Virus record (IMG/VR): IMGVR_UViG_3300028761_000006 | Location: 1-22,424 of that record | Source of the DNA: a virus | Length of the DNA stretch: 22,424 nt | Direction: 5' to 3' (one strand) | Shown here: positions 3,152-20,252 of the stretch, in pieces | Position numbering within the stretch: position 1 is the first letter of the stretch | How the letters are laid out: the number at the start of each line of letters is the position of its first letter | Program-made: the position numbers and the translations under genes | The notes under the pieces: generated by a model | What the model saw: the letters and a program-made list of their open reading frames with translations, nothing else | The model's database searches: none | Told to the model about the DNA's origin: nothing

Positions 3152-3931
3152 ATGCCAAACAACACTTCCGTAGCAACAGGAATGACACGAGTGCCCACAA
3201 GCGTGCTGAGAGATGCGATTTACAAGTGTCTAGCTTGCAAAGTTGACGACCCGTACCGCGGCGCGGTGATGTTCGATGTGTGGGACGACGATTTGGTGTT
3301 GGCCGCCACCGACGGCGTTAGCTTAGTGATCGTGAAACTTGCTGGCCCTGACAGGGGGAAACCGGACGGGTATATCCGCTTGACACCGTACGCGCTGCGG
3401 GAGTTGTGGTATGCAGTGAGGTTTCCTAGGAGTAGGGACGCTGTCTTCGACTGGGAAACAAAGCAGTGCCAGGCCGGAGATCGTTTTGTTGAGCTAGAAA
3501 CGAATGAGCACACGCCGCCGCCCTGGCGCGCGATTGTGGAAATGACGCAGGGTTATAACGCATGGTTTACCGCGAGCGCGCTGCGCGATGTTTTCGCGGG
3601 ACTGAAGGCGGCACACTGCGATATTGCCGTCTGCAGCTACACGCGCGCGACAAATCAGCTTCAGGTGGAATCGCGAAGTAAACGACTTCGGATGTACGCG
3701 AACTGCGATGTATTTGTAAAGGGAACCGACATCTTTGAGTTCGCAGTGGACGTCAAGCGTATGTACATGATGCTGCAACGTGTCGGCTGCGAGCGAGTGC
3801 GGATTGGGAAAGGCTGGCGAGAGCCGCTCGCGTTGGATTTCTCTGGCGGCGTCGCGTTTCTGATGCCGATGGACTTGGAGGAAGTCCGCTTCGTGTGGAA
3901 GATGCGTGAATCGCAGTCGTCGCAGTCGTGA
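3152..3931 (+). CDS. DNA polymerase III beta-clamp (DnaN)-like protein, phage-encoded
   Basis: 259 residues resembling a bacterial sliding clamp, the ring that tethers replicative polymerase to DNA. LVLAATDGVSLVIVKL (residues 48-63) matches the DnaN 'ATDGHRLA' strand. The end, ALDFSGGVAFLMPMDL (about 227-242), matches the DnaN C-terminus, where an 'IMPMRL' sequence forms the client-binding pocket. Between them, FAVDVKRMYMMLQRVGCERVRI fits the clamp's final-domain helix and strand. At 259 residues it is about 100 shorter than the usual ~366, so one of the three domains is reduced or missing. The leader has CCGGTCGCC and AAAGGAG. It implies the phage reprograms host polymerase III. Confidence 0.7.
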   Translation: MPNNTSVATGMTRVPTSVLRDAIYKCLACKVDDPYRGAVMFDVWDDDLVLAATDGVSLVIVKLAGPDRGKPDGYIRLTPYALRELWYAVRFPRSRDAVFDWETKQCQAGDRFVELETNEHTPPPWRAIVEMTQGYNAWFTASALRDVFAGLKAAHCDIAVCSYTRATNQLQVESRSKRLRMYANCDVFVKGTDIFEFAVDVKRMYMMLQRVGCERVRIGKGWREPLALDFSGGVAFLMPMDLEEVRFVWKMRESQSSQS

Positions 3932-12937: not shown

Positions 12938-15004
12938 CTACTCGCTCGGCTTTGGCCACTTCTTCAGCGGACAATCCTGGTCGCGGTACCAGGTGCGCCC
13001 CAGCGCGCCGTTCGGGAATTGACGCAAGTAGCAACCGCACTCGCCGCACCGCTCACCGAATCGCGCTTCGCAGAGAAGACAAACTTGCCAGCGTTTGCGG
13101 GCTTCCGCCGGAGAGAGATAACCTTTGCCAGCAAACAGTGAGCGGAACCAGAACCACAGCTTAAACGCCAGGTAGCGATGCACCAACTTCCAAACGGGCG
13201 GCGGCTTCTTTTTCTCTGACTCAATGCGTGTGAGTATCGCCATGCCGCCGTTTCGCTTGACGTAGTACGACCGTGTGAACTCTGTGTGCTCGTTCAACAG
13301 CTTTTGCAGGTCGAACGCGAAGTCGGTCTTGGGTTCAGAGCTTCCCTGCGGCAGGTATGTGATTTCGGGTTGCAACGCGATGATGCGGGCGTAGCGCGGC
13401 GCGATGTCAGCAACGAGACTTTGGAGCGGCGGGTATATGTGATGACGCACGAGCACCAGGTCGTCTTTGTCACTGATTTCCTCAGTGCTCACGCTGTCTC
13501 GCTTGGCAATTCGCGCTTCGCTTCCCGCAAGCGGAATGCCCGCCATCTCGCCGCCAGGTAGCAGGAACACCTGCGACGGTCGCGGCTCGCTGTATGCGAG
13601 GATTGCCGCCAGCATGTCAGCGTAGCGACCCGCAACCCACACGCGCCGCTCACGCACGGCTTCGGAGATAGTCGGCACGTGCATCAGCACGTCAGTGAGT
13701 GTGCGATACTTTTCCGACTGCGTGTCTCTTGCGATCTGTTCGAGCCACACGCGCATGGTTTGCGGTACGTCGGGCGGCAAGCGTACCTGAATGTGTACGC
13801 CCTGCGGCTGGCCAGCTGGCGCGTTCGCTGTTATCTGGGGTCGAGCTACGTTTTGAGGATTAGCACCTGCGCACGCCACGCATTGCTCCTTTCTTTGCTC
13901 TGCTTCAGCCATGATTTGCTGCCATTCCTGTTCCGAAAGCCGCGTTGTTAGCGCGTTGTCTTTGCCCAGGACAAAATGCTCGTAAATATCTTGCACGCTG
14001 CGATTGCAGGCGTACTTCGACATGAGCACAAAGTTGCGAGCTTTATCAATCTTCCGAACCGGCGCTCGCACGTGTCGCTGCCCGAAGTAGTGCCGCCACT
14101 CCAAACCACGCACAATGCGCACGTCGCGTCCAACGTGTCTGTAGAGTCCGTGAATCAGTCCTTCTTCACCACCGAACCCCTGGACGCCAGCGGGAGCAAA
14201 CCCAAGCCAGGACTCGCGGCGCACGCAGAAAACTCCCAGCCCCAACATCGGCACGGGATAGCTAGCAACGTCTGTCTCGATGGCTGGTCGGTAACCGAAC
14301 TCGCGCAGTCGGCGTTCGTGTCCGTAGAACTGCATGCCCGCCGGAAGCCGCTCGCCGCAAACGGGACATTGTTCCACGTTGCCGTCTTTGCCTTGCAAAA
14401 TCGGGTCGCTTACTGTCGCACCCCAGAATCGCAGCACTGAACGTTCAGTCACCAGGACGGGATCGGGCCAGGGGCAGAAGTAGAACTTGCTGCATTTGCA
14501 GACCCACACGCGCGAGCTGATGCCCAGCATTTCGTTACGCCATTTCGGAACGTAGCAGTCGTCGTAGGCAATCCGTTCACCATCGCCCGCAACTGGATCG
14601 GAGTCGTAAACCAGCGGGCCGTGCAGCAGGTCGTCTGTCAGCGGATTGTCAGTGAGATAACGCACCAGCGCCGCGAGCGACTTTGCAGTGACATAGACGT
14701 GACTGTCAAGCATCAACACGAAATCGCCGCGTGCTTCGCGTATCGCTTTGTCTCTCGGATATGCCGTTCCCACCACCTCGTTTGCGAGTAAATAGCGAAT
14801 GCCCGACGCAGCGCAGAATGCTCGCAACCACCGTGAGTTCACCTGCGACTGCGGGTCATTGTCGGCGACGAGCAGCTCGATTTCGCTATTCCAGTCAGGA
14901 ATCAGAGTGCGCAGTTCGGCGATGGCGTGGCGCAGCTGCGTGAAGGTGAACCATATTCCTTCGTCGTCGCGGTATGTTGCAGAGGCGATGGTCAGGGATG
15001 TCAT
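12938..15004 (-). CDS. GT2-fold glycosyltransferase with polypeptide-GalNAc-transferase-like motifs and C-terminal zinc cluster
   Basis: 688 residues. Residues 1-330 form a GT-A glycosyltransferase: LLVADND (44-50), then RDKAIREARGDFVLMLDSH (84-102), where the sugar-nucleotide metal motif is DSH, as in polypeptide GalNAc-transferases, and GFGGEEGLIHGLY (276-288) with LEWRHYFG, recalling their 'WGGEN' and downstream His. Internal cysteines (CKC 169-171, CPVCG 213-217) may bind metal. Residues about 400-640 form a second, unrecognised domain. The end is a compact zinc cluster (C642, C645, C653, C656, C658, C678). It follows the Thr-rich Cys protein by 21 bases and may glycosylate it (inference). 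Confidence 0.8.
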   Translation of the reverse strand: MTSLTIASATYRDDEGIWFTFTQLRHAIAELRTLIPDWNSEIELLVADNDPQSQVNSRWLRAFCAASGIRYLLANEVVGTAYPRDKAIREARGDFVLMLDSHVYVTAKSLAALVRYLTDNPLTDDLLHGPLVYDSDPVAGDGERIAYDDCYVPKWRNEMLGISSRVWVCKCSKFYFCPWPDPVLVTERSVLRFWGATVSDPILQGKDGNVEQCPVCGERLPAGMQFYGHERRLREFGYRPAIETDVASYPVPMLGLGVFCVRRESWLGFAPAGVQGFGGEEGLIHGLYRHVGRDVRIVRGLEWRHYFGQRHVRAPVRKIDKARNFVLMSKYACNRSVQDIYEHFVLGKDNALTTRLSEQEWQQIMAEAEQRKEQCVACAGANPQNVARPQITANAPAGQPQGVHIQVRLPPDVPQTMRVWLEQIARDTQSEKYRTLTDVLMHVPTISEAVRERRVWVAGRYADMLAAILAYSEPRPSQVFLLPGGEMAGIPLAGSEARIAKRDSVSTEEISDKDDLVLVRHHIYPPLQSLVADIAPRYARIIALQPEITYLPQGSSEPKTDFAFDLQKLLNEHTEFTRSYYVKRNGGMAILTRIESEKKKPPPVWKLVHRYLAFKLWFWFRSLFAGKGYLSPAEARKRWQVCLLCEARFGERCGECGCYLRQFPNGALGRTWYRDQDCPLKKWPKPSE

Positions 15005-15025
15005 GGCGATGTCAGTAACTGAATA

Positions 15026-17053
15026 TCAATAATCGCATAGGATAATGTGCCAGCCCACGCTCCATTCGTGGCACATGAAGTACAAGTCAGGTCGGCACTG
15101 ACAGCCAGTTGGGCAGGGCCCGAATATGTCCCAGTAGTAGTTGCCTTGACCATCAGTTTGACATGACGCGTAACAGTACCATAACGTGCAGTCCTGGCTT
15201 GTGGTAGTGTCGGTCGTCGTGGTGCTGGACGTGGTTGTAGTGTCGGTCGTCGTGGTGCTGGCCACATAACAGGGTTGATGCAAAACTTGACCGGCGTATT
15301 CTGTTCCAGAACACGGGAACGGTGGAGGATCGCACGTACAAGGCGGCTGGCAAGGCTCGATTAGCCACCACTGCCAAGTATAGCCGTCATCATTAGAGTG
15401 GCAGCTCCACCGGCAACCATACTGCAAGCATGACGGCGTTGTCGTGGTCGTCGTGGTGCTGGACGTGGTTGTGGTGGTGCTGGACAGGGTTGTGGTGGTG
15501 CTGGACAGGGTTGTGGTGGTTGTCGGCTCGCACGCGAGTGCGTAGTACCCATCGCGACCTGGACAAGGCCCGCTTGGTGGGGTAACGCAATCGCAACCGA
15601 TAGGACAATCATGACTAACGAGAGTCCACACACCTCCAGCACAGTAGTAGTCGCAGAAGTGAGCGAGGCAGTTCACGGAAGTCGTTGTAGTCTCAGTGGT
15701 CGTGGTTGTCGGCGGGTGACACGTAAACGCCCGCACCTGACCCACGGTGGCGCACACACAATCTTCTTCGGGCGGCATAACGTCATTGTTGCACAAACAC
15801 CCTTGCGGACAGTGCTCAATTCTCTGCCAGAAGAAACGGCCGTCCCAGTTAATGCACTTCCATTTACACAAGTGCTGCGAACAGAGTTCCGCGGTGGTAG
15901 TAGTGCCGCTTCCGGTCGTCGTGGTGCTGGATGTTTGGTCTGGTCTGTAGCAAGGCGTCATCGTGCCTTCGCCGGGGATTGAACAAGTAATCGGCGATGG
16001 CGGGTCGCACATACATCCGGCTGCGGCATCACATCTGTTCTCACGCAGCAGCCATACATCCGCCATAGCCTGTTCAGACCAAGCGCAGGTCCAGGTGCAA
16101 TAATCTGAACAACGCGGCGGCGGTGGCGGTGTCGGGCAGTTACATGGAAGCTGTACAAGCATGTACGACACCTGCGGGGGGCAGGGTTGTTCCGGCGGCG
16201 TACAGCAACATTCCACATGGCCGCAGGTGTTGTTTGCGAGAGTGTAAATGCCGGACTGACAGAGCCACTGGCACGCACCGGGCAGAGTTGTGGTTGTGGA
16301 CGGGAACTCGGTGCATTTGGAGGCCCTGTACTTGAGGGTTAAATTGAAATAGCTATGGACATCGCATGGAATATTAGGCGGGATACACGTGTAATTGGGA
16401 CACCTACAAGGTGTATCCAGAACCCACTGGAATGTGCACGTGTCGGCGGTGCCTTGGCACACCCACCAACATGTATGCGGACACCTATCTGAACAGGGAT
16501 ACGTAATTGTGTATGAAGGGTCGCAAGGACATATCGTCTGCGGACTGCCGTACGGGAGACCGTACAGGTATTCGTAACAGAAGCAACAATGCCTCAGCGG
16601 GCATGTGTCCTCCACCAACACCATCATCCATTCCCCATTAACCATCGCACACCGGTATGTGCAACCCCCCTCCACATCACGGCACTTAACATCCTCACAA
16701 GGAACGGATGTGGTGGTGTCTGACGTTGACGTAGAACCAGTTATGGATGACTCTGACGTCGTCGTTGAGTAGTCGCAGTATGTCAGTAGTATTGATCCAA
16801 CCGCCGTGTTGTCACACACACTTGCTGGTTGCGGACAGACACAACCGGTCGGGCATGTCGTGACAATCTGCCACACGTACTCCCCCGCTTCATTCAGAAC
16901 GCACTGCCACTGACACTGCGCATCGTCGCACTGCACACCGCCTGGCCCGCGCCACAGCCGCGGCGCCACCGGTTCCGCTTTTGTTCCACGCGGCCCTAAG
17001 AGCTGTTCGCTAAGCCACTGCGCTGCGCGTTTGCCGAGTACGAAGATGTCCAT
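15026..17053 (-). CDS. Nine-repeat Cys-rich protein with Thr-rich mucin-like linkers
   Basis: 675 residues from ATG 17053 (GTG 17068 is alternative). About nine modules of 60-80 residues repeat the pattern C-x(3-4)-C-x-W/Y-x-C, 6-10 residues, a W-rich strand, then CP-x-G-C-x-C, P-rich turn, C, and a last C. Examples are CQWQCVLNEAGEYVWQIVTT followed by CPTGCVC near the start, and CYASCQTDGQGNYYWDIFGP followed by CPTGCQC near the end. Linkers between most modules are Thr/Ser runs (TTTTTLSSTTTTLSS, STTTTDTTTTSS). No signal peptide or membrane helix is clear. The high even number of Cys suggests disulfides outside the cell, so a tail fibre/adhesin or decoration protein fits its place after the tail genes. 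Family unknown to me. Confidence 0.85.
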   Translation of the reverse strand: MDIFVLGKRAAQWLSEQLLGPRGTKAEPVAPRLWRGPGGVQCDDAQCQWQCVLNEAGEYVWQIVTTCPTGCVCPQPASVCDNTAVGSILLTYCDYSTTTSESSITGSTSTSDTTTSVPCEDVKCRDVEGGCTYRCAMVNGEWMMVLVEDTCPLRHCCFCYEYLYGLPYGSPQTICPCDPSYTITYPCSDRCPHTCWWVCQGTADTCTFQWVLDTPCRCPNYTCIPPNIPCDVHSYFNLTLKYRASKCTEFPSTTTTLPGACQWLCQSGIYTLANNTCGHVECCCTPPEQPCPPQVSYMLVQLPCNCPTPPPPPRCSDYCTWTCAWSEQAMADVWLLRENRCDAAAGCMCDPPSPITCSIPGEGTMTPCYRPDQTSSTTTTGSGTTTTAELCSQHLCKWKCINWDGRFFWQRIEHCPQGCLCNNDVMPPEEDCVCATVGQVRAFTCHPPTTTTTETTTTSVNCLAHFCDYYCAGGVWTLVSHDCPIGCDCVTPPSGPCPGRDGYYALACEPTTTTTLSSTTTTLSSTTTTTSSTTTTTTTPSCLQYGCRWSCHSNDDGYTWQWWLIEPCQPPCTCDPPPFPCSGTEYAGQVLHQPCYVASTTTTDTTTTSSTTTTDTTTSQDCTLWYCYASCQTDGQGNYYWDIFGPCPTGCQCRPDLYFMCHEWSVGWHIILCDY
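15204..15261. repeat. Direct repeat in a Thr-rich linker, 25 bp, 33-bp period
   Basis: A 25-bp segment containing GTAGTGTCGGTCGTCGTGG occurs at 15204-15228 and again at 15237-15261. The 33-bp period equals 11 codons, so copies encode the same Thr/Ser/Asp linker and unit loss or gain keeps the frame. Confidence 0.8.
15470..15511. repeat. Perfect 21-bp tandem duplication in a Thr-rich linker
   Basis: Two adjacent identical 21-bp units (15470-15490, 15491-15511), with core GTGGTGGTGCTGGACAGGG, are followed by a partial third copy. Each is 7 codons of a TTTTLSS-type linker. In-frame slippage could change linker length. Confidence 0.8.
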
Positions 17054-17055
17054 CG

Positions 17056-17928
17056 TTAGCCGATCCACGTCGAGAAATTTGCTACATCGTAGAACCTGAA
17101 TGTGAGGTAAACGGGCTGAGCGCCCTGCGGCAAAAGACGTCCGCGACCGTCGAGTAGAACTGGTTGCCCTAACGGATTACCCCGGTCGTCCACTGCAAGT
17201 TTTTTGCGGCCATCCGCGTCGAGATAGAAGTAACCGGCGTCCAGAATTTCGGTCGGTATCCACTTCTCCTGGTTGTACACGACCACGAATCGGCACTGCC
17301 AGACCCAGAAGTTGTTGACTTTTGTGAACGTTGCATCAACGGACTCGCAAAGCAGAGTATGTTTCTCGAAACCGCGGTAGTTGCTGTCATTCACGCGGTT
17401 GGTCATAGCCAGCACTAGGTTCAGCACGGGGTATCCTGGCGCGTAATACTTAGTGAACGTAATCACTCCCAAAACTCTTGTGATGAAAATTGGCTCAGAA
17501 AATACGCCTTGTGCTGAATTGACGAGTGGCCTTGCGTCCCTATCTTTGGTTGCCGCAACTTCCTGCTTGCGCCCGGTGATGCTGATTTCAATCGGCCACG
17601 TCGTCGGGTCGCCGGTCATGCGCGTGCTGCCGCCAGCTGGCGGAGTGGCTCTGTCATGCGAACCGACCTGCGACGGTTCCGGCATGCGATAAATAAGTTC
17701 GACGTGCCAGACGTTTTTCTCCTTGCCGATCTCCTGCAACCGCGGGCGGATTTCCTCTAGGAACAGAGCCGGCGCGTCAGGATGCGCAGTGCCGAGAACA
17801 ACTCCAGGCGCAGCAGCTACAGCGGGGACACCTACGTTTTTTTCGGCGATAACGAGATACGTTTCGACAATCTCGCTTCGCCCTGTGAGCGAGCCAGTTC
17901 CTGACCTGCTTAGCAGTTTGACTTCCAC
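17056..17928 (-). CDS. Hypothetical tail-associated structural protein
   Basis: 290 residues from a GTG at 17928 with AAGGTG upstream. I do not recognise it. It is beta-rich and soluble, with stretches such as VWHVELIYRMPEP, WPIEISITGRKQE, FWVWQCRFVVVYNQEKW and YLTFRFYDVANF. It follows the tape measure gene by 8 bases and precedes the Cys-rich protein by 2. In siphophages the gene after the tape measure usually encodes a distal tail or baseplate protein, so that role is the best positional guess. No catalytic motif is visible. Confidence 0.75.
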   Translation of the reverse strand: MEVKLLSRSGTGSLTGRSEIVETYLVIAEKNVGVPAVAAAPGVVLGTAHPDAPALFLEEIRPRLQEIGKEKNVWHVELIYRMPEPSQVGSHDRATPPAGGSTRMTGDPTTWPIEISITGRKQEVAATKDRDARPLVNSAQGVFSEPIFITRVLGVITFTKYYAPGYPVLNLVLAMTNRVNDSNYRGFEKHTLLCESVDATFTKVNNFWVWQCRFVVVYNQEKWIPTEILDAGYFYLDADGRKKLAVDDRGNPLGQPVLLDGRGRLLPQGAQPVYLTFRFYDVANFSTWIG

Positions 17929-17936
17929 GGTTCACC

Positions 17937-20252
17937 TTACGGCCCCACCACTCGCGGCGCATCCTGGCGTTCGACTGCGCGCGCGATGCGGTGCTGCGCT
18001 TCCAGCTGCTGACGAGCGAGCTGGGCTAGTTGTGGCAATATCTCACGTGCGATGTCCCGCGCCTGAGCTTGCGCTTCGCGTTGCAGCAAGAGCCTCGCTT
18101 CTTCGACGCTACCCTTGACGATGGGCCGCATCTGCGAGAAGTTCTGCATGATGTTCTGTCCAACCTGGACAAACAGTTGTTCAAGCAGCCGCGCGTGCTC
18201 CTGCGCACCAATCAAACCTTTTTGCAGTGCGATGTCGAGCAGTGCTGCATTTCGTGCCGCGTCCGCAAACGCGGGCGGAATACCGCTTGCAGCCTCGCGC
18301 ATACGGTTGACCGCATCAGCGGCATCTTTCAATAGCGTTGCCTCACCGAGACGCCTAGCGGCTTCAGCTGCATCAGCGAACGCTTTGTTGATTGCGTCAA
18401 CTCGCTCTTTGTCGAGAAAACCGCCTTGCCGTACCTCGCCAACCTGGCGGCGCAGAATTTCGAGACGCGCTTCCTGCTGCGTGAAACCGCGAGCAAGCAG
18501 CTCGTTTTCGAGTGCTGCGCGATTAAGTTCCTCGCCGAGTTCGCGTGCGGACTTAGCTACCTGCGCGATTTCCGCTGCCTGCTTTGCGAACTGGAGTTGT
18601 TCAATCACGCCTTGCGGGGCACCTGCCTGCTGTAACTGCGTCAGGAGTCGGCCAAAGTCCTGGCCCAGGAGTTTATCAATTTCCTCGTTCAGCTCGCGGA
18701 TGCGCTTGTTCGCTTCGGTCTCAGCGACAACGCGAAGTTGCTGGGCGCGCTTTTGCTCCAACTGAGCTAACTCAGCGACAGCTTGCCGCTCTTGTTCACG
18801 CAGTTTTGCGAGCAATCCGCCAACCTGCGTCCACGCGTTCAGGACGGCTTTCGTCTGTTCGTCTGGCTCTGCGGCACCGGCCATCGCTCGCTGCGCCGCC
18901 TGGCCAGCCGGCTCCAACCGGCGAAACTCAGCTTCCACCTGCGCAATCGCTTCGCGGATTTGGCGGAGCTTTTCTGTTGCTTTTGCTTGTGCGTCGTCAA
19001 ACTGCTGTGTGATGTCAACGGCGAATTTCGGAACATCGAGCTTGACCGCCAACGCCGCCGACTTCTGCCGCTCTGCGAAGGCTTTGGTCATCTCGTCGTC
19101 GAGCTTTTTCACTGCCTCGGCAGCTTCCCTTGCCGCTTTGGTGGTGCCTACTGCGACTTGGGCAACCGTCGCAAAACCTCCCGCACTATCGGCAACTTGC
19201 CGGGATGCCACTGCGAGCTGCTTGGCACTGTCGGCGGCCTCTTGACTCTTTCTGTCGAAAATTCCCAACTGCGAAACCGCGGCAACCGCCAGACTCGCTG
19301 CAACCGTGGCCGTCGCAAGTAGCGCAATGCCAGCTGGGCCAGCAAGCGCAGTCAGGAATGCCTTTACCGCTGCCACAGCAATCAATGCCGTGCGATACAC
19401 CGCCATCGCTGCTGTTACCGCCATAATCACCGCACGCCAGGCCAGGAACGCGCCCGCGACGGCCAATGCTGTGCGAATGAGAGTCATCACCGCGGCAGCG
19501 TTGTCCAGCAGAAACTTTGTGAAGTTGACGACTGCCGCAGCAACAGAGTTGATAGCGGGAGCCAGGCTGGCAATGATCAGCGTGCTGATAGATTTCGCAA
19601 CCCCGCCCATTTTGGTAAACGAGTCGCTCAGTTCCTCAATCTGTTTTTGCCCGGTTTCGCCGATAGCACCAAGCGCACGCGACATCAGACCAGGCCCGCC
19701 TTCCAGGTCCTGGGGGCGGAGTTTCAGAAATTCGCGGCCACTTCGGCCGAACAGCGCATGCGCCACCGCCTCGCGCGATTCCTGGTTCAGCGATCGCATT
19801 GCGGTAACGATCTTTTTCAACTTCTCCTCAAGCGGCAGTCCAATCAAGTCGTCCGCACTCAGACCCAGTTGCGCGAGTGCATCTGCCGCTTCACCGCTTC
19901 CTGATTGTGCATCAGCCAGCGCCCGCTGGAGTCGGTGAAGTCCTGCCTGCAACGCTTCTGTGCTGATGCCTGCCAGGCTCGCCTTACCCGCGATATTAGC
20001 GAACGCTTCCGCAGACTCTCCCAGTGCCCGTGAGCTTTTGATTATTGCGTCCACCGAGTTCGTGAACTCTTTCAAACCAGCCAGCCCCTGGAACGCGACA
20101 AACGCACCGAGTGCTTTCTTTGCCAGCGAGCTGACACTTTCCATCTTCGTCTCGAATGACTTGCGAAAGTCTTCGGTCTGTTTCTCGACGCGCTTGATAG
20201 CGTTGACAAACTCAATTGCGTCAGCGCTGATGCGTACACCGATGTCGGGCAT
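17937..20252 (-). CDS. Phage tail tape measure protein
   Basis: 771 residues, fixing tail length during assembly. The N-terminal part is helical (AIEFVNAIKRVEKQTEDFRK, then GLAGLKEFTNSVDAIIKSSR). The central zone (about 225-340) is a string of Ala/Val/Leu-rich hydrophobic helices (AVIMAVTAAMAVYRTALIAV, ALAGPAGIALLATATVAASL), typical of tape measures that enter the host membrane. The rest is long Gln/Ala/Glu/Arg coiled coil (QQLRVVAETEANKRIRELNE). Its position after the two chaperone genes, with a 1-base overlap at 20252, is diagnostic. At roughly 0.15 nm per residue the tail would be about 115 nm, a rule-of-thumb estimate. Confidence 0.93.
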   Translation of the reverse strand: MPDIGVRISADAIEFVNAIKRVEKQTEDFRKSFETKMESVSSLAKKALGAFVAFQGLAGLKEFTNSVDAIIKSSRALGESAEAFANIAGKASLAGISTEALQAGLHRLQRALADAQSGSGEAADALAQLGLSADDLIGLPLEEKLKKIVTAMRSLNQESREAVAHALFGRSGREFLKLRPQDLEGGPGLMSRALGAIGETGQKQIEELSDSFTKMGGVAKSISTLIIASLAPAINSVAAAVVNFTKFLLDNAAAVMTLIRTALAVAGAFLAWRAVIMAVTAAMAVYRTALIAVAAVKAFLTALAGPAGIALLATATVAASLAVAAVSQLGIFDRKSQEAADSAKQLAVASRQVADSAGGFATVAQVAVGTTKAAREAAEAVKKLDDEMTKAFAERQKSAALAVKLDVPKFAVDITQQFDDAQAKATEKLRQIREAIAQVEAEFRRLEPAGQAAQRAMAGAAEPDEQTKAVLNAWTQVGGLLAKLREQERQAVAELAQLEQKRAQQLRVVAETEANKRIRELNEEIDKLLGQDFGRLLTQLQQAGAPQGVIEQLQFAKQAAEIAQVAKSARELGEELNRAALENELLARGFTQQEARLEILRRQVGEVRQGGFLDKERVDAINKAFADAAEAARRLGEATLLKDAADAVNRMREAASGIPPAFADAARNAALLDIALQKGLIGAQEHARLLEQLFVQVGQNIMQNFSQMRPIVKGSVEEARLLLQREAQAQARDIAREILPQLAQLARQQLEAQHRIARAVERQDAPRVVGP

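Follow-up and report, generated by a model that had tools for sequence, protein, structure and literature searches.

A candidate mucin-type O-glycosylation cassette at the end of a phage tail operon

Two adjacent genes that close a siphovirus tail operon probably constitute a phage-encoded cassette for mucin-type O-glycosylation that acts on a tail adhesin. The first encodes a repeat protein rich in cysteine and threonine and the second a glycosyltransferase, whose catalytic domain has the predicted fold of polypeptide GalNAc-transferases and carries an invariant metal-binding motif. Genes with long Thr tracts recur next to this enzyme across phages and bacteria. The DNA analyzed (the window, 22,424 nucleotides) is a 22.4-kb contig of an uncultivated virus of bacteria, whose minus strand carries the tail module of a siphovirus.

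In the mechanism that we infer for the cassette, a GT-A domain of the GT27/GT60 kind, with a DxH metal site, a distal His and a GGEE loop, would take a nucleotide sugar from the host cytoplasm as its donor and transfer the sugar to the hydroxyls of the Thr/Ser linkers in the protein encoded just before it. The product would be a stiff, sugar-coated rod bearing small, presumably disulfide-rich beta modules and presented at the tip of the tail or in the form of a fibre, where it could mediate adhesion, act as a shield or resist proteases. Some bacteria have no UDP-GalNAc, so that GlcNAc or another sugar is possible as the donor moiety. The bacterial cytoplasm is also unfavourable to disulfides, which counts against the proposed cassette.

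If this is correct, environmental phages coat mucin-like proteins with sugar by means of enzymes that they themselves encode, with consequences for adsorption and virion shielding. In that case mucin-type glycosylation of proteins could no longer be considered mainly eukaryotic, viruses would be a major reservoir of it, and the finding would bear on the origin of GT27. Compact bacterial-type polypeptide O-glycosyltransferases with built-in acceptor sequences would be useful in glycoprotein engineering. Phage-encoded glycosylation of virions is already known in mycobacteriophages, by enzymes that do not match the profile of the present family (alignment A2). For a phage enzyme paired with a Thr-rich acceptor, or a prokaryotic mucin-type transferase, no description was found in the literature searched (open-licence, with most subscription journals outside it); the earlier note on this DNA had taken a dedicated phage enzyme-substrate pair of this kind to be undescribed.

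The repeat protein and its place in the tail operon

On the minus strand the gene order is major-tail-like protein, tail protein, tape measure, a 290-aa protein, repeat protein and glycosyltransferase (Table 1). The last two form the end of the tail operon, and beyond them lie a terminase small subunit, a D12-type DNA methylase and others. Both reading frames of the pair were found exactly as the earlier note had given them, including the 21-base gap; both lie on the minus strand, a point that the note had left unstated. The repeat protein runs from ATG 17053 to 15026, and the glycosyltransferase starts at ATG 15004, 21 nt past the stop codon. An alternative GTG at 17068 would add five residues to the repeat protein and overlap the upstream gene. 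When three genes were searched as single proteins, close relatives of each came from a single phage. Elsewhere in the window (3152-3931, plus strand) a 259-aa protein looked sliding-clamp-like by eye and had no Pfam or PHROG match.

Table 1. Positions in the window of the gene pair, its neighbors and the features discussed
Feature	Coordinates	Strand	Remarks
Tape measure protein	17937..20252	-	phrog_9483, E 7.2e-23; puts the pair at the end of the tail module
290-aa protein between tape measure and repeat protein	17056..17928	-	No assigned family (Pfam/PHROG, tail context)
Repeat protein, 675 aa	15026..17053	-	Conserved N-terminus, nine Cys modules, Thr/Ser linkers
Longest Thr tract, residues 507-545	15419..15535	-	Partly a 21-bp tandem repeat
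Thr tract joining modules 8 and 9, residues 596-623	15185..15268	-	Shortened in sister phage L002
Spacer between the two genes, 21 nt	15005..15025		
Glycosyltransferase, 688 aa	12938..15004	-	PF00535; AF2 and Foldseek; phrog_13558
DSH, residues 100-102	14699..14707	-	DxH metal-binding motif; D100 and H102 invariant in 72 relatives
GGEE, residues 278-281	14162..14173	-	Invariant in alignment A2 (72 relatives)
H305, distal His (C-His)	14090..14092	-	Predicted third metal ligand; invariant in alignment A2

The repeat protein consists of 11.6% Cys and 15.6% Thr over its 675 residues and matched no Pfam or PHROG family. Counting by hand gave nine Cys modules, in line with the earlier estimate of about nine, with the consensus CxxxxCxWxCx(n)WxLxxxCPxGCxCxPPxxxC...C. 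The modules had also been described as joined by long Thr/Ser runs; this applies to six of the eight junctions, the other two being direct or Pro-rich. The tracts use a mixture of Thr codons (entropy 1.86 of 2 bits), and between the window phage and its sister phage the codon differs at 31 Thr sites while the residue is still Thr. Thr is therefore kept at the protein level, and the tracts are not a mere DNA microsatellite. Long Thr/Ser/Pro tracts that are conserved at the protein level and joined to Cys-rich domains are present here as in mucin-like (PTS) proteins, whose tracts in addition carry dense O-glycans. We regard the protein as a candidate acceptor for O-glycosylation and as a likely tail adhesin or fibre. 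No virion domain was detected in it, and this counts against the proposed cassette.

The closest relative, phage L002, retains both genes, and the pair is for that reason not a chance arrangement. Between the two phages the enzyme is 93% identical with a dN/dS of 0.08, similar values were obtained for the tape measure protein (92%, 0.07), and the repeat protein is 72% identical over aligned columns with a dN/dS of 0.24. Purifying selection acts on the genes of both the repeat protein and the enzyme. The first 54 residues of the repeat protein are identical in the two phages, and the L002 protein is devoid of module 8 and most of one Thr linker. The high divergence and the module loss fit a host- or environment-facing protein that gains and loses modules at its Thr linkers. 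A 21-bp tandem repeat at 15446-15520, within the longest Thr linker, is a likely site of such gain and loss.

An enzyme reduced to a remnant, next to Thr tracts that arose by low-complexity drift, would accord with the poor model of the C-terminal half of the enzyme and with no activity being known for it. The dN/dS of 0.08, the invariant active site and the mixed Thr codons argue against this explanation, which we consider very improbable.

An alignment of 17 modules yielded a confident three-stranded beta model (pLDDT 89) for which the PDB contained no fold match (best E 2.5). Because the model is confident and has no such match, the Cys module may represent a new small fold, with putative disulfides. 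In the 39 viral records searched, all of them selected for the enzyme, the module profile matched only the repeat genes of L002, L047 and L054. Of 392 planctomycete genomes, sampled evenly across the phylum, it matched one, on a contig (L190) where the module adjoins the enzyme and which had itself supplied a module to the profile. The module was thus seen in three divergent phage lineages and on one contig of a planctomycete MAG, with the enzyme adjacent every time; outside enzyme-bearing contigs none was seen in this small search set (39 viral records, 392 planctomycete genomes). Phage L047, whose enzyme is only about 29% identical, shares the layout of the window from the major capsid through the tape measure to the repeat protein and the glycosyltransferase.

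The glycosyltransferase: motifs, predicted fold and known families

The catalytic GT-A domain comprises about residues 1-345 of the 688-aa enzyme. In the AF2 model, built with 72 relatives, this domain mostly has a pLDDT above 80, and the C-terminal half is modelled poorly. The earlier note had proposed a fold comparison of the first 330 or so residues against GT27 and GT2. Run with Foldseek on the full-length model, the comparison gave polypeptide GalNAc-transferases (GT27) for all 50 of the PDB matches listed (E 1e-11 to 5e-9). The full-length TM-scores against these structures are low, about 0.3 by query and 0.4 by target, because the C-terminal half is poorly modelled and the targets carry a lectin domain. 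The closest viral structure, A0A6J7WYC1 from an uncultured Caudovirales phage (TMt 0.83, E 2.4e-20), probably belongs to the same enzyme family; it differs in bearing the generic label 'Glyco_tranf_GTA_type'.

The DSH, GGEE and downstream His to which the earlier note had drawn attention are all invariant in the 72 relatives in the form given in Table 1. Since most relatives were collected with the pattern GFGGEEG, the invariance of GGEE is built in; the DxH motif and H305 lie outside that pattern. The canonical DxD of GT2 is absent, and most relatives have DSH or DCH. According to a survey of GT-A enzymes (PMC7185993), DxH takes the place of DxD in GT27 and GT60, two families that adjoin in the GT-A tree and share O-glycosylation of polypeptide Ser/Thr, and the C-His is a metal ligand in GT27.

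By sequence the enzyme is assigned to PF00535 (GT2; E 1.8e-7, 31.7 bits against a cut-off of 23.3), which also matched 72 of the 72 relatives at E 0.01 or better. The description of the enzyme as GalNAc-transferase-like is consequently borne out by fold and motif and not by sequence membership, Pfam placing it in GT2 and the profile search reaching GalNAc-T12 only at a non-significant E = 1.3. It resembles the GT27 enzymes of animals and apicomplexans in its best fold matches, DxH and distal His, and GT27 acceptors are Thr/Ser-rich like the phage linkers. It differs from them in that the usual ricin-type lectin domain has no Pfam match in its 688 residues, and in having a candidate acceptor within its own operon. 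With GT60, the Skp1-type polypeptide GlcNAc-transferases, it shares the DxH motif, and the acceptors of that family are likewise polypeptides. The listed fold matches contained no GT60 structure, and the Pfam matches of the 72 relatives included no family of GT60. As the enzyme is only GT2-like by sequence, we describe it as GT27/GT60-like in its predicted mode and file it in neither family.

Over about residues 416-688 the enzyme shares homology with the C-terminal part of the L047 enzyme (E 6e-14), and both proteins end in a Cys-rich, zinc-ribbon-like module (phrog_13558). A methyltransferase-like reading of the region preceding this module, made by eye, was not retained, as it had no Pfam support. 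Che8 gp108 also looks, in our own reading, like a transferase fused to a methyltransferase. Che8 gp108-110 were rejected as homologues, scoring 1.1 bits or less against the A2 enzyme profile. Mycobacteriophage glycosyltransferases modify virion proteins (PMC12619734, PMC11256854), but the reported targets of the Che8-type enzymes (Freeman et al. 2023) are the C-termini of capsid and tail-tube proteins and not dedicated Thr-rich repeat proteins.

Decoration of modified bases in the phage DNA would be another role for a viral glycosyltransferase, such enzymes existing in DNA-hypermodifying viruses (Pyle et al. 2024, cited in PMC12619734). Given the tail-operon location, the polypeptide-transferase fold and the pairing with Thr-tract genes, we attach hardly any credence to it here.

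Recurrence of the pair in phages and bacteria

The conserved motif pattern was found in at least 119 viral stretches, from which removal of near-duplicates left 77 loci with readable upstream sequence. Among the matches listed, 33 of these 77 non-redundant loci have a Thr-tract gene on the same strand that ends within 160 nt upstream of the enzyme, whereas only 14 of the 752 other genes encode such a long tract (Fisher p = 8e-27). The signal is concentrated at the directly preceding gene (36% at offset -1, 9% at -2 and at most 3% elsewhere), with percentages that are approximate since gene calling relied on simple six-frame ORFs. On well-supported branches of the enzyme tree the presence of a Thr-tract neighbor requires at least 11 changes. 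Partners range from 100-175 aa, almost wholly Thr/Ser/Pro, up to 1,200 aa, some of the large ones carrying pectate lyase or GDSL domains; the L097 partner has 175 aa, 61% T+S and a gap of 12 nt. The enzyme-substrate pairing suggested earlier for the window alone is supported by Thr-tract genes directly upstream of the enzyme in many phages and in bacteria.

About half of the viral relatives have no Thr-tract neighbor, so that the family may have other acceptors and may not be uniform. In L015, L019, L028 and about 30 other viral loci the enzyme has 284-290 aa, and a gene of about 340 aa, RecB-like nuclease by eye, lies upstream in place of the Thr-tract gene.

These distributions bear on two further explanations. 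The enzyme might modify sugars or lipids of the host surface, in seroconversion or superinfection exclusion, and the Thr-rich gene might be adjacent only through the clustering of host-interaction and fibre genes. Phages do carry serotype-modifying glycosyltransferases (PMC12619734), several large partners have the pectate lyase or GDSL domains mentioned above, and many relatives have no Thr-tract neighbor. Yet the fold and DxH motif are of the polypeptide transferase type, many partners are tiny and nearly pure Thr/Ser rather than fibres, the pairing is maintained in bacterial copies, and other gene offsets show little or no enrichment. We therefore consider a role in surface modification unlikely.

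Alternatively, a polypeptide transferase might have its acceptor elsewhere, on a residue of the Cys modules, another virion protein or host proteins, with the Thr linkers as plain spacers. GT60 enzymes, which glycosylate a defined hydroxyproline and not mucin tracts, provide a precedent, and the relatives that have no Thr-tract neighbor would fit. The Thr tract is, however, common to otherwise dissimilar partners, whereas Cys modules occur in few of them, and we judge this explanation distinctly improbable.

Glycosylation of the Thr linkers by the adjacent enzyme hence remains the reading that we prefer. On balance we lean to the view that GT27/GT60-like O-glycosylation operons, consisting of a Thr-tract acceptor and a dedicated transferase, are widespread in uncultivated phages and are also used by some bacteria for exported Thr-tract proteins. 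Similar pairs turn up in dozens of phages from the environment and in a number of bacteria, which suggests a virus-encoded means of sugar-coating proteins that has been overlooked. Four enzyme queries gave no match in 50,697 genomes of isolate phages, where a terminase control retrieved 2,115 records; with no detectable copy in the isolates searched, this biology has so far been beyond culture-based work.

Of the 33 non-redundant viral Thr-tract partners, 19 terminate in a common tag, C-x(1-10)-C-[NKL]-x-L-x-[FYW]. It occupies the last 12 or so residues in L009, L011, L013, L021, L049, L097, L116 and others (for example CVDNTCNKLGF and CPEDPDCNNLQF) and is possibly a recognition or anchoring signal.

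With respect to the sugar donor, no epimerase match was found in the L002 or L047 records, so that the host may have to supply UDP-GalNAc, or a different sugar may serve as donor. In phage G017 (L211, 2-6460) sugar-nucleotide genes (Polysacc_synt_2, RmlD/epimerase) lie beside the pair on the opposite strand, together with genes for an ATP-grasp protein and another glycosyltransferase.

In 84,980 bacterial and archaeal species genomes the motif pattern retrieved 78 stretches, and the bacterial hosts of the enzyme are alphaproteobacterial and other MAGs and isolates. Here a short, exported-looking Thr-tract protein is encoded 13-110 nt upstream of the enzyme; in L131, L168, L189, L183, L156 and L124 the distance is 60-110 nt. 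Several of these partners have the form RR...GGV...LP.RW.KPVV...PAHA followed by a Thr tail. In L131 and L168 the enzyme carries a fused HprK-related kinase A domain, and in L167 (2250-4817) a PqqD-like domain; in L143 (26-1476) the PqqD-like domain is fused to the Thr-tract partner instead. The PqqD-like fusions suggest a peptide-modification pathway, and the six loci from L131 to L124 may represent a bacterial system of this kind. Finally, a cellular look-alike of the phage pair was observed in a Thermomicrobiales MAG (L157, 693-5872), where the enzyme is followed 2.2 kb downstream by the gene of a Tat-signal-like protein (672 aa, 16% Cys, Thr tracts), and an epimerase-like gene, identified by eye, lies between the two.
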